This document shows positions 32,457 to 42,324 of a stretch of 64,000 nucleotides of DNA, piece by piece (position 1 is the first letter of the stretch; every line of letters begins with the position of its first letter). Position numbers and translations under genes: made by a program. The notes beneath the pieces are model-generated. The model saw only the letters and a program-made list of their open reading frames with translations. It was not told the DNA's origin and made no database searches. Where the stretch lies: contig JAEELO010000006.1 of the NCBI GenBank assembly GCA_016282705.1, positions 1 to 64,000 on the forward strand, given 5' to 3'. This DNA comes from Candidatus Gastranaerophilales bacterium (GTDB lineage: Bacteria > Cyanobacteriota > Vampirovibrionia > Gastranaerophilales > Gastranaerophilaceae).

Positions 32457-33542
32457 ATGAATTTATTAAAAAAATTATTTATTAGGTTTACATTGAATAA
32501 AAAAACGGATATGGAAGCTGAAATATACTCCCAGCCGGATATTATATTTGATTTAATAAGAAAATATATAAAAAAAGATTATACATTGAATATTGATATG
32601 CCTGAAAATATTAAAAAGGTTGCACTAATTGCAAGCGGTTCATCATATCACAGCGCTGCAATTGCTGCTAATTTTCTCAGACATCAGGTTCATTGTGACG
32701 CACAATCATATTACGCAAGTGAAGTTGCTCTTACTGAAAATATAGATGTTGATACTGAAACTTTATATGTTTTTATTTCTCAATCAGGAGAAACTAAAGA
32801 TACTAATATTTCTTTATCTAAAATCAGAATTAAAACCGACAAAACACTTGCCATTACTAATACTAAAAATTCTTCTTTATATAAGAATTGTAAGTATAAA
32901 ATGCTCACGTATGCCGGTCTTGAAAAAGCTATAGCTTCTACTAAGGCAATGTGTGCTCAAATGTTTTGTTTGTTTCTTATTTCGGCAAAAATTATGCAGC
33001 AAAAAGAACTTCCTTCAATACAAGTTATTGATGAACTTTTAAATGTTCCTGAATACATTAATAATGCTTTACATCAGGTTGAAAATATTAAGCATTATTC
33101 GGAAAGTCTTGTGAATTATGATAATGCTGCTATATTAGCTTCCGGTATGTTCTATCCTCTTGCAAAAGAAGGTGCATTAAAAATAAAAGAAACTTCATAT
33201 ATCAATACAACGGCATATCCTACCGGCGAGTTTTTACACGGTCATATTGCAATTTTAAATAAAAAGTGTGCAGTAATTTCTTTGGTAAATAATCATAATG
33301 TCCAATTCACTATTGATGTTTTAAATAAAATTAATTCAACATATAAAACAGATTCTCTGATTATAACCGCTTTACCGCTTTCACAATTAACCTTAAGTAA
33401 TGTTATTGAAATACCTGCCCACAGTGATATAAATTTCTTATTTTCATCTTTAATTATCTTTCAGCTGCTTGCATATTATTCCGCATTATTATTAAACAGA
33501 AATATTGATGCACCGGAAGGATTGCAAAAAATTGTAAAATAA
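32457..33542 (+). CDS. SIS-domain isomerase, GlmS-isomerase-like without glutaminase domain
   Basis: 361 aa; IASGSSYHSAAIAANF, SQSGETKDT, EKAIASTKAMCAQM, LKIKETSYINTTAYPTGEFLHG. Confidence 0.82.
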   Translation: MNLLKKLFIRFTLNKKTDMEAEIYSQPDIIFDLIRKYIKKDYTLNIDMPENIKKVALIASGSSYHSAAIAANFLRHQVHCDAQSYYASEVALTENIDVDTETLYVFISQSGETKDTNISLSKIRIKTDKTLAITNTKNSSLYKNCKYKMLTYAGLEKAIASTKAMCAQMFCLFLISAKIMQQKELPSIQVIDELLNVPEYINNALHQVENIKHYSESLVNYDNAAILASGMFYPLAKEGALKIKETSYINTTAYPTGEFLHGHIAILNKKCAVISLVNNHNVQFTIDVLNKINSTYKTDSLIITALPLSQLTLSNVIEIPAHSDINFLFSSLIIFQLLAYYSALLLNRNIDAPEGLQKIVK

Positions 33543-33601
33543 TATTAACAGGTTTGTATTCTTCTGACATTAAATATTTTTATGGGATTTATATAAATAA
33601 T

Positions 33602-35113
33602 ATGAAAGTTATAGCACAATATTTGAATCTACCTTTTGTAACTACGCAGCATAATAATGTTTCTAAAACAGTGAAATATCCTAATTTGTTGCCGCTTAGT
33701 CATGATACTGTGTCTTTTTCAGCCAGTGCTCAAATGAATTCTACTGCAAGAAAAAATATGCCCAATGCATCTCTTTGCAGACAAATATATGAAAACGCAG
33801 AGCCTGCTAAGTTCTATATGGATATGGTTTTAAAAAAATATATCGGACCTCTTTCACAAGAAGAAGTCGGGTCGGGGAAGTATAAGTCTAAATATTTGGA
33901 ATATGTGTCAAGACGTAAAACTCCAAACAGTATTATGGAAAAAGTAGGATCGAAATTTAATAAAATTACTACATCAAATGACAAAGCCTTTACAAAAGAC
34001 GTATCTAAAATGATTGTAGAAAATTTTAAATTACAAAAAGGTGCTAATAAAAACATGGTATATTCACTTGTAATGAGGGCAGTATCTGATTCTCAATTTA
34101 CATGTAAATATCCTCCTCATATAAATGCCGATATATATTTAACTGCAGTAAGATCGCTTTTGGAGGCTTCTAATGTCATAGATTTTAGTGCTAATTCTCC
34201 TGAGGAAATAGATGATAAATTTAATGCAATTAAAGAAAAAATTTCTATCTTACCGCCAAATGCCGAGCATAATGACAAGAAAAAATATTTTAATCCTTTA
34301 ACAGTTGAAGGGGTTAAACATTATGCTAATGATATTTGTCAATCAAGAATTATAATGTTAAAACCACAAAAAGAATACACTGCAAGAGTTTTAAGTGCAT
34401 TAGAAGAAGCCGCTAAAAACGGAGACTTAAAAATATTATCTATTGAAAATAATTTACCTGATGAAGAAAAAATTCCTGACGGAAAACAAATTTCTGATTA
34501 TGAATATGTAGATGAGGCTGTTTTAAGAAAACTTGCTAAGTCAGTTAATGCAGAGTATCAAAAGAATTTCTCAAAATCAGGTTATCTTGGCATCCACATA
34601 AACATTGATTTATCTAATAGTTTATTTCCTCCGGAATTTGATGGATATACCGGCGAAATTCAAATTATAGGTAATGATGTACTTGAACTTAAAGAAGTTG
34701 AAGATTTATGCTATAAAATTAAAGATAATAAAGATGTTGTTACAAGAGGCTATAATAATTTTAAAGATTATTTATTAAAATACCTGACTCCTCAAAACAG
34801 ACAAGCATTTGATGATTATACTTATGCTTTGTATCTTTCTCAAAGAGAATTAAAACCTCATATAGGAAGATGTCAATTTAAATCAATAGATAAATTCGGT
34901 TTTACAAGGGAACAACTCCCATATGAACTTGACTATAATATTTTAAGGTCTATTAAAGAAGCATCTGATATATCAATCAAAAAAGAAGAAGCCAAAGCTG
35001 CTGCGGAAGATGAAGAAAAACTTAAAAAAGACCCTCATAAAACTAAATCAATGATAGAAAAACAACATAGAATTTCGAATATAATCGGGCAACTAAAATA
35101 TGCCTTTGATTAA
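33602..35113 (+). CDS. Divergent RelA/SpoT-like nucleotidyltransferase-domain protein (putative)
   Basis: Ordered motifs SRRKTPNSIMEKV, NDICQSRII, KSGYLGIHI, GEIQIIG resemble the RelA/SpoT synthetase motif series. Start chosen at ATG 33602 rather than TTG 33554. Confidence 0.5.
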   Translation: MKVIAQYLNLPFVTTQHNNVSKTVKYPNLLPLSHDTVSFSASAQMNSTARKNMPNASLCRQIYENAEPAKFYMDMVLKKYIGPLSQEEVGSGKYKSKYLEYVSRRKTPNSIMEKVGSKFNKITTSNDKAFTKDVSKMIVENFKLQKGANKNMVYSLVMRAVSDSQFTCKYPPHINADIYLTAVRSLLEASNVIDFSANSPEEIDDKFNAIKEKISILPPNAEHNDKKKYFNPLTVEGVKHYANDICQSRIIMLKPQKEYTARVLSALEEAAKNGDLKILSIENNLPDEEKIPDGKQISDYEYVDEAVLRKLAKSVNAEYQKNFSKSGYLGIHINIDLSNSLFPPEFDGYTGEIQIIGNDVLELKEVEDLCYKIKDNKDVVTRGYNNFKDYLLKYLTPQNRQAFDDYTYALYLSQRELKPHIGRCQFKSIDKFGFTREQLPYELDYNILRSIKEASDISIKKEEAKAAAEDEEKLKKDPHKTKSMIEKQHRISNIIGQLKYAFD

Positions 35114-39666: not shown

Positions 39667-42324
39667 ATGAGTTTAGGAGTATTTTCTGATTTCGCTACGC
39701 GTCCGAGTGCTAACAGTCCGATTACAAGTAAGGAAGTTGAACAAAAACAGGCTGTAACTGTTAATGTTCCTGCAAAAAAAACTTTTGCCGAAACTGTTAA
39801 AACAGTTGCACCAATTGTTATTCCTTTAGTCGCAATTCCAATTACTGCAGGTATTACCTACAAACTCTCCACAAAAAGTGTTGCAGGATTAAAAAATGAA
39901 ATGCAGGCTTTAACAAAAGAATTAGCAAATCTGAAAATACAACAAGAAAAACAATCACAAGTACTCGCAGATACTCTAAAAAAACAAGCTGCAAAAAATA
40001 AAAAAGCAAATGCTCAAATTTGGTCTGCTTTATTAGCTGCAGCCGGTTTAACAGGTTCATATAAAGCAGGGAAACTTTCTAAAGATGATAAAAAGGAAGT
40101 TGCACAGAAATTAGGAAACAGAGTATCTGATATAGATGCTCGTTCATCAAGTGCATTAAGCAGCGCTGAGCAGTCAGTAGCATTAACAGGTAACAGTCTT
40201 GGAAGGAAATATACAGTGAACATCAATGGTGTTCAGCTTCTTCAAAATACTAATGTTTTGACCAGAAATACACAAAAATATGATAAAGCTATTGAGACCA
40301 TTAAATCAGCTGCTCCTAAAAGGTTGTATGAAGCACCTGATAGTATGCCGTTAACTGTTGAACATCCGACAATATGGTCTGTTACATCTGAGTTTGCTCC
40401 GATAAAAGAAGGAGGATTGGGTTCAGTTCCTGTTGAAGTGCAAAACAATGTTACTAAGCTTGGTATTGATATCCCGAATTTTATTCCAATGTATCAACAA
40501 AAAGGCAGAGCTATATTCAGACAAGAAAATGGTGAATATATTTATACATATAAAAAGGATTTTAAACTCCAAAAAGCTGCAAGTTTTAAAGTAGATACAT
40601 ATCAAAATGGAAAAGCAAAAACCGAAGAAGTCGAAGTATATGTTCATAATTCCAGAGATAAAGACGGAAAAAATAAACAATTGATATTTATTAAAAATGA
40701 TAACTATTTTAACGGTACTATATATCAAACAAGTGAAAAGACAGAAGAACCGGAAAAATTTGCATTTTTCTCTAAGGCTGTTTATGAACTTGCAAAAGCA
40801 AAAGAAGATTTAAATAGTGTTAAAGATTTAAATATTGTTGATAAAGAAGCATTTGATTCTATAAAAGCTCCTGATGCATTTATGTTGAATGATTGGCAGG
40901 CATCTCCAATTGCTGCACTGGCACGCTATAAAGCTCCGATGGAAAATGCATACGATCAGCTTTCTGATGAAGCTGCAAAAAAACTTGCTAATATGAAAAT
41001 TATAACAATCGGGCATAATGCTATGTATCAAGGTTCTACAAGAGATAATAATGATAACGCTCAAAGAAAAGATTCAACAACAAATATTTTGAATACTTTA
41101 TTTGACAATTTTGCATATGATATAGTTAGTAATTCAGTAACAGGTGCATCTGCAACTAATCCTGCAGATAATGGTTTAAAAAATTTAGATAATGTATTGT
41201 TATTAAATTCTCATGACCCATACTCTAATCATACAAATTTATTGAACATGGGTATTTGTTTGAGCGATTACTTCCATCCTGTTTCTCAAAATTATGCACA
41301 AGAAATTATTTCAGACGATCATAAAGAACTTGCAGGTGAGTTAAGATGGGCTTTAAACCAAAAAAATAATTCCGGTTCTTTAGTCGGAATTATTAATGGT
41401 AATGATTTTAATAACTTGTCAATTGAAGCAAAAGCTCAGCAAATTAAAAACATGACAGGATTGGATTTTGAAACATATAATAAAAAATCTGATATTGATG
41501 ATGTAATGAAAGCTCGTCAAGCTAATAAAATTAATTTTTATAACAATTATATTATTCCGTTTACTTTGAAGAATGATTCTTCAAATAAAGATGAAAAAGT
41601 TGAATCAGTTCGCCAATTATCTAAACGTTTGGAATGTGTAGATAAAGGCGGTAATACAAAATTACCTGCCTTATCCGATTCTGTTCTTGCAGAAACTCCG
41701 ATAATAACATCTGTCGGCAGACTTGTTTCTCAAAAAGGCATAGGTGTTATGACTGAGGCTATTAATATGTTAATGAAGAATTGGGATAAAGATTTTCCTT
41801 CCAAACCAAAACCAATATTCTATTTAGCCGGTGAAGATGCTGAAGGCGGTACACAAAGAGCTTATATTGAAGACTTAAAAAATAATAAATTATCAAAAGA
41901 AGATTCAAACAGAATTGTATTCGGTCACGGATTTGCACCAATGGCCGCATTGATGGCTGCATCTGATTTCTTCCTTTTACCAAGTATATTTGAACCTTGC
42001 GGTTTAACACAAGGTGAGTCGTTTGCAGTAGCAACACCCGTTATAGGAAGTGCTGTCGGAGGTATTGTAGATACAGTTAATCGTGACGGAAAACAAAACG
42101 GAATTTTAACTGATAAAGATAAAAAACTTGATGCTAATGGTTTTTATGAAGCAATGAAAAAAGGTCTTGAAGTGTACTTTAACAATAAAGACCAATATAA
42201 AACAATGGTAAAAGACTCACTTGCAGAAGACTTTAGCTGGATACAAAAAGGTAAACAAGGTCCTGTTTTTGATTATCTTGACAAAATTGGTATAAATAGA
42301 ACAACCCTACCTGATGTTGTTTAA
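39667..42324 (+). CDS. glgA: Glycogen/starch synthase with long N-terminal extension
   Basis: 885 aa; TSEFAPIKEGGLGSVP, HNAMYQGS, GIINGNDFN, SVGRLVSQKGIGVMTEA, FLLPSIFEPCGLTQGESFAVATPVIGSAVGGIVDTV. About 210 aa precede the catalytic domain. Confidence 0.9.
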   Translation: MSLGVFSDFATRPSANSPITSKEVEQKQAVTVNVPAKKTFAETVKTVAPIVIPLVAIPITAGITYKLSTKSVAGLKNEMQALTKELANLKIQQEKQSQVLADTLKKQAAKNKKANAQIWSALLAAAGLTGSYKAGKLSKDDKKEVAQKLGNRVSDIDARSSSALSSAEQSVALTGNSLGRKYTVNINGVQLLQNTNVLTRNTQKYDKAIETIKSAAPKRLYEAPDSMPLTVEHPTIWSVTSEFAPIKEGGLGSVPVEVQNNVTKLGIDIPNFIPMYQQKGRAIFRQENGEYIYTYKKDFKLQKAASFKVDTYQNGKAKTEEVEVYVHNSRDKDGKNKQLIFIKNDNYFNGTIYQTSEKTEEPEKFAFFSKAVYELAKAKEDLNSVKDLNIVDKEAFDSIKAPDAFMLNDWQASPIAALARYKAPMENAYDQLSDEAAKKLANMKIITIGHNAMYQGSTRDNNDNAQRKDSTTNILNTLFDNFAYDIVSNSVTGASATNPADNGLKNLDNVLLLNSHDPYSNHTNLLNMGICLSDYFHPVSQNYAQEIISDDHKELAGELRWALNQKNNSGSLVGIINGNDFNNLSIEAKAQQIKNMTGLDFETYNKKSDIDDVMKARQANKINFYNNYIIPFTLKNDSSNKDEKVESVRQLSKRLECVDKGGNTKLPALSDSVLAETPIITSVGRLVSQKGIGVMTEAINMLMKNWDKDFPSKPKPIFYLAGEDAEGGTQRAYIEDLKNNKLSKEDSNRIVFGHGFAPMAALMAASDFFLLPSIFEPCGLTQGESFAVATPVIGSAVGGIVDTVNRDGKQNGILTDKDKKLDANGFYEAMKKGLEVYFNNKDQYKTMVKDSLAEDFSWIQKGKQGPVFDYLDKIGINRTTLPDVV

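Follow-up and report, generated by a model that had tools for sequence, protein, structure and literature searches.

The closest solved relatives of the family described here, by profile and by fold, are RelP/YwaC and RelQ/YjbM (PF04607), which have the same synthetase fold and the same order of motifs and which, as in this family, carry no HD, TGS or ACT domain. Exported alarmone synthetases (SaEAS, VpEAS and AaEAS; PDB 8vx3) are encoded by stand-alone genes with no immunity gene, and their toxicity is confined to the cytosol (PMC12691689). Apk1/Tas1 and Apk2 (MuF) are (p)ppApp-making toxins; guanosine- and adenosine-type signatures are given in the same work, and swapping them leaves specificity unchanged (PMC12226406). 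The toxSAS toxins CapRel and FaRel2 are tRNA pyrophosphokinases (PMC11559606).

The locus compared with these systems lies in a window of 64,000 nucleotides (the whole stretch of DNA that was analysed) from a Candidatus Gastranaerophilales bacterium. The gene was confirmed as a real, unannotated relative of the ppGpp-making enzymes, belonging to a family found only in Gastranaerophilales. The ATG at 33602 agrees as start codon with the N-termini of the homologues and the TTG at 33554 does not. The features are as follows (residue conservation refers to an alignment of 71 homologues):

32457 to 33542, plus strand: SIS-domain gene (SIS match 2.4e-25), 59 bp upstream and a constant neighbour within the window's genus (position -1 in 37 loci); context only, not part of the enzyme.
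33602 to 35113, plus strand: coding sequence (503 amino acids) of the tagged, putative RelA/SpoT-type pyrophosphokinase, from the open reading frame, motifs, orthologues and dN/dS.
33686 to 33724, plus strand: tag LLPLSHDTVSFSA (residues 29-41) in the N-terminus, predicted as disordered from pLDDT; Asp and Phe in 70/71.
33911 to 33943, plus strand: first motif, R-x-K-x-x-x-S-I-x-x-K (R104-K114); K106, S110 and K114 invariant, R104 in 67/71.
33956 to 34288, plus strand: clade-specific insertion (about residues 119-229), modelled as helices; from length comparison and model, with approximate boundaries.
34331 to 34348, plus strand: second motif, D-x-x-x-x-R (D244-R249); D244 and R249 invariant.
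34580 to 34597, plus strand: third motif, GY-x-x-x-H (G327-H332); Y328 and H332 invariant, position 330 Ala/Gly in 68/71 in place of the usual Ser.
34655 to 34672, plus strand: fourth motif, E-I-Q-I-x-G (E352-G357); E352 and Q354 invariant, position 356 Leu/Ile/Met/Val in place of the usual Arg.
34688 to 34717, plus strand: L-K-x-x-E-D-x-x-Y-K element (L363-K372), aligned with RelP; K364, E367, D368 and K372 invariant.
34808 to 34957, plus strand: conserved C-terminal module F...YT...Y..QR...LDFN.L...K (residues 403-452); Y406 and D444 invariant, the others nearly so.

A preliminary description of this DNA had recognised four motifs of the RelA/SpoT synthetase series in the protein, and all four were found in order at the places it gave: SRRKTPNSIMEKV (33908-33946), NDICQSRII (from 34328), KSGYLGIHI (from 34574) and GEIQIIG (34652-34672). 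When searched alone, the window protein matched no NCBIfam family, gave insignificant Pfam and PDB matches and had no PF04607 match, presumably because the insertion splits the domain. Because these single-sequence searches were uninformative, the identity of the protein was assigned via its relatives. A scan of GTDB species genomes gave 97 relatives, 80 of which were kept; most were labelled Candidatus Gastranaerophilales or close kin, and the remainder were MAGs labelled only 'bacterium' or 'Cyanobacteria', plus one Clostridia-labelled bin. The alignment comprised 71 homologues from Gastranaerophilales or unclassified MAGs, the most distant of which share 25% identity with the window protein. 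Insert-free homologues exceeded the PF04607 gathering cut-off (30.5 and 30.3 bits against 27), PF04607 was matched at E <= 0.01 by 43 of the 71 members, and the window protein is filed, through its family, in the RelA/SpoT synthetase superfamily (PF04607). Residues K106, S110, K114, D244, R249, Y328, H332, E352, Q354, K364, E367, D368, K372, Y406 and D444 were invariant (71/71), and since these include the catalytic positions of all four motifs, occurrence of the motifs by chance is excluded.

A profile of the insert-free members retrieved YwaC/RelP first from the PDB (E 7e-12), followed by other RelP- and RelQ-type entries. The profile alignment superposed R-K-S-I-K, D-x-x-G-x-R, GY-x-x-x-H and EIQI on the corresponding RelP motifs, and identified the L363-K372 element as the counterpart of the helix that follows EIQIRT in RelP/RelQ. 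Structures were predicted with AlphaFold2 for the window protein (pLDDT 90.4, pTM 0.86) and for the insert-free homologue L124 (pLDDT 86.6, pTM 0.81). The best 39 Foldseek matches of the L124 model in the PDB were all RelA/SpoT synthetases, most at probability 1.00, and included RelP, CapRel, RelQ, the exported synthetase 8vx3, FaRel2 and SpoT. The same RelA/SpoT group came out on top for the window-protein model, at weak E-values (0.06-0.2) that were expected, since the large insertion sits in the domain. The RelA/SpoT fold, on which the preliminary description had made its assignment depend, was thus found in confident models. The family is conserved and RelA/SpoT-type in fold, and it keeps the catalytic residues; these three observations support the original reading of a divergent RelA/SpoT-type pyrophosphokinase, with a predicted activity.

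The absence of HD, TGS and ACT domains, also claimed at the outset, holds for the window protein and for all 71 members (Pfam), and the domain content is that of a small alarmone synthetase (a synthetase domain without HD, TGS or ACT). A separate, complete RSH of 737 amino acids, without the tag, is encoded elsewhere in the same genome. From the conserved residues we infer that pyrophosphate would be transferred from ATP to the 3'-OH of an acceptor. The guanosine-type signature consists of S-x-H in the third motif and Arg in the fourth; in this family the His is kept, Ser is replaced by Ala/Gly and Arg by Leu/Ile/Met/Val, so the acceptor is not readable from the motifs, which are also unlike the adenosine-type signatures of PMC12226406. 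These two replacements (Ser in the third motif, Arg in EIQIR) distinguish the family from RelP/RelQ, to which it adds the N-terminal tag, the conserved C-terminal module and, in one clade, an insertion of ~110 amino acids.

That insertion had been noted from the window protein as a large separation of the first two motifs, and it is real: K106 to D244 spans 138 residues, about 110 of which are insertion, ~110 more than in relatives from other genera. It is, however, restricted to one clade and not family-wide. The intermotif length was 108-120 residues in 31 members and 5-27 in 40, and in a maximum-likelihood tree built without the insertion region all 31 insertion-bearing members fell into one 33-member clade (support 100/99), together with L118 and L119, which have no insertion; one gain and two losses is therefore the simplest history. 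L119 has normal synteny; in L118 (271-1446), on a MAG contig of 2.8 kb, the insertion is missing in frame, through a deletion or an assembly error. The insertion, modelled as helices in the window protein, is a clade-specific elaboration that does not define the family.

Orthologues were found in 33 of the 37 searched genomes of the window's genus. Across the order the family is patchy (about 68 full-length matches, counted by row, in 193 sampled genomes), and Gastranaerophilales outside the genus are often without the gene; near-constant in the genus and patchy elsewhere, it was rejected as a universal core gene of the order. Between close pairs dN/dS was 0.05-0.15, which shows that the family is under purifying selection. 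No phage or plasmid record matched the family.

In the window's genus, the SIS-domain gene and an outer-membrane-efflux-type gene precede the gene, which faces genes for a small membrane protein and a TPR protein. In other genera, it adjoins glucose-6-phosphate isomerase, sits between a UPF0102-type gene and a ferredoxin oxidoreductase (these three named from sequence), or lies elsewhere. An adjacent antitoxin or immunity gene was sought and no neighbour was common to different genera, so there is no conserved antitoxin or immunity gene. In this respect the family resembles the isolated genes of the exported alarmone synthetases (PMC12691689), which are likewise stand-alone and one of which (8vx3) is among the fold matches; unlike them, it lacks a Sec-like signal as well as the export domains listed in that work, and carries instead the tag, a possible new signal. 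Apk1/Tas1 and Apk2 have their synthetase domain in delivered toxins, whereas the window gene has neither a PAAR nor a MuF domain and no adjacent immunity gene. Very large proteins with such domains also occur in Gastranaerophilales: in untagged proteins of ~950-2500 amino acids (L284-L291 and L050:5535-8405), divergent RelA/SpoT synthetase domains lie within the chain or at its end, as in polymorphic toxins, and some of these proteins have glycine-rich hydrophobic stretches. Another architecture of the same order is a 529-amino-acid protein (L048:3087-4676) with a hydrophobic segment and a PF04607 match above the cut-off (34.8 bits).

The preliminary description had also pointed to a long N-terminal region. 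This region is present, and most of it is a disordered tag whose conserved motif had been missed: in the AlphaFold2 prediction the first 45 residues of the window protein are mostly disordered (pLDDT mostly < 60 over residues 1-50), and the consensus LxPLxxDTVSFSG, with its Asp and Phe in 70 of 71 members, places the Asp at residues 31-49. Among the matches listed, a strict codon pattern for the tag gave 67 matches in 193 genomes of the order and reversed-pattern controls gave 0; in a phylum-wide scan of 388 genomes, every match was within Gastranaerophilales, with 1 control match elsewhere. These controls (0 and 1) argue against the tag having arisen by chance or at the DNA level, and both origins were rejected; its codons vary, so that the peptide is what is conserved. 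A common proteome-wide feature was likewise ruled out, with 1-2 clear cases in each of two 400-kb samples.

Among the 80 tagged ORFs examined (some genes, fetched twice, were counted twice), 27 belong to this family and 53 lie outside it. The loci at which the tag starts an unrelated protein are L054, L058, L059, L061, L069, L071, L075, L084, L086, L207-L217 and 30 among L228-L283. The non-family proteins, few of which are named by Pfam, include a phosphoglucomutase in the window's own genome, a tRNA-nucleotidyltransferase-type enzyme, pyruvate phosphate dikinase, a PRPP synthetase (genome G047), and ankyrin-like, HNH- or HExxH-bearing and very large multidomain proteins. Genomes with a tagged PRPP synthetase, phosphoglucomutase or tRNA-nucleotidyltransferase-type enzyme encode further copies of that enzyme, and the other PRPP synthetase and phosphoglucomutase copies read in the window's own genome have no tag. 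With an untagged RSH elsewhere in the genome, the window protein fits this pattern of a tagged extra copy. A second PRPP synthetase of the same genome (L218:1301-2344, contig C92) has an N-terminal extension with a degenerate tag, SADIFCFKG. In the window itself, an untagged starch-synthase-type protein (39667-42324) has a long N-terminal extension of low complexity ahead of the catalytic domain.

Only 1 of the 71 N-termini passed a 12-residue hydropathy mean of 1.8 as a Sec-type hydrophobic stretch, the tag matched no export domain on the published list for exported alarmone synthetases (PMC12691689), and Pfam found no known export domain in family members. The tag looks like an address label, perhaps for export. 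It is quite possible, if clearly short of an even chance, that it is an undescribed export or sorting signal marking effectors and duplicated metabolic enzymes, including a RelA/SpoT-type synthetase that would act outside the cytosol of the producer.

The reading that we favour, to which we give almost an even chance, is that the protein is a catalytically intact nucleotide 3'-pyrophosphokinase, directed by its tag away from the cytosol together with other tagged proteins and most likely exported by a non-Sec route. The activity, product, targeting and export that we infer for the window enzyme are as follows. A single-domain RelA/SpoT-type enzyme, the second beside the housekeeping RSH, would transfer pyrophosphate from ATP to a nucleotide 3'-OH, with products of the (p)ppGpp or (p)ppApp type; the disordered N-terminal tag would send it, with a few tagged enzymes and effector-like proteins, to a non-cytosolic site, most likely extracellular and reached by a non-Sec route, as in exported alarmone synthetases. 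That precedent (PMC12691689) makes export the leading idea, and export would account for both the missing hydrolase domain and the missing immunity gene. Against it, the family is patchy in the order, the N-termini are not Sec-like and the tag is outside the listed export domains; moreover, several tagged proteins are ordinary metabolic enzymes, for which an internal site fits as well as export, and targeting to an enzyme complex or to a compartment inside the cell is a reasonable alternative. It is possible, though less likely than the favoured reading, that the protein is an ordinary small alarmone synthetase of the cytosol that supplements the (p)ppGpp made by the RSH; the tag would then be a docking peptide that might, for instance, assemble nucleotide and sugar-phosphate enzymes in a complex or in a compartment within the cell. 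RelP and RelQ being the closest solved relatives, the stable synteny and presence in 33/37 genus genomes (as for a physiological gene) and the tagged PRPP synthetase, phosphoglucomutase and pyruvate phosphate dikinase all suit such a role; the tag on HNH, HExxH, ankyrin-like and very large multidomain proteins does not, nor does the frequent absence of the gene from Gastranaerophilales outside the genus.

A toxSAS or anti-phage abortive-infection protein, acting by tRNA pyrophosphorylation or (p)ppApp and autoinhibited through its C-terminal module like the fused system CapRel, is unlikely. CapRel and FaRel2 share the fold of the family, CapRel is among the best fold matches and has a C-terminal module for which the conserved module of the family is a candidate counterpart, and 12 of the 40 members without insertion hit the PADLOC phage-defence-candidate model PDC-S33 (best 1.1e-07). 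However, the family has no adjacent antitoxin gene, its position in the genus is constant, unlike that of defence islands, its sequence profile retrieves RelP/RelQ and not CapRel or FaRel2, no relative is found among phage or plasmid records, and the tag would be left unexplained. A pseudoenzyme that keeps the fold as a binding module would fit the non-canonical residues (Ala/Gly for Ser in the third motif, Leu/Ile/Met/Val for Arg in the fourth and, in the window protein, Gln at residue 247 where Gly is canonical), yet it is very improbable: all the named metal- and ATP-site residues are invariant over 71 sequences, and a dead enzyme is not expected to keep them.

The fold and the chemistry are already known; what is new is the order-specific branch, the clade-specific insertion and the link to a tag that spans unrelated proteins, and no paper on the family or the tag was found in the open-access library searched. 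With this family the alarmone synthetase superfamily gains a branch specific to one order, which standard annotation overlooks in the insertion clade. Its tag, shared with other proteins, marks out a set that can be put to the test, in gut bacteria that are common but mostly uncultured. Should the tag prove to be an export signal, it would give access to the secretion biology of Gastranaerophilales and provide a new delivery route for alarmone synthetases.
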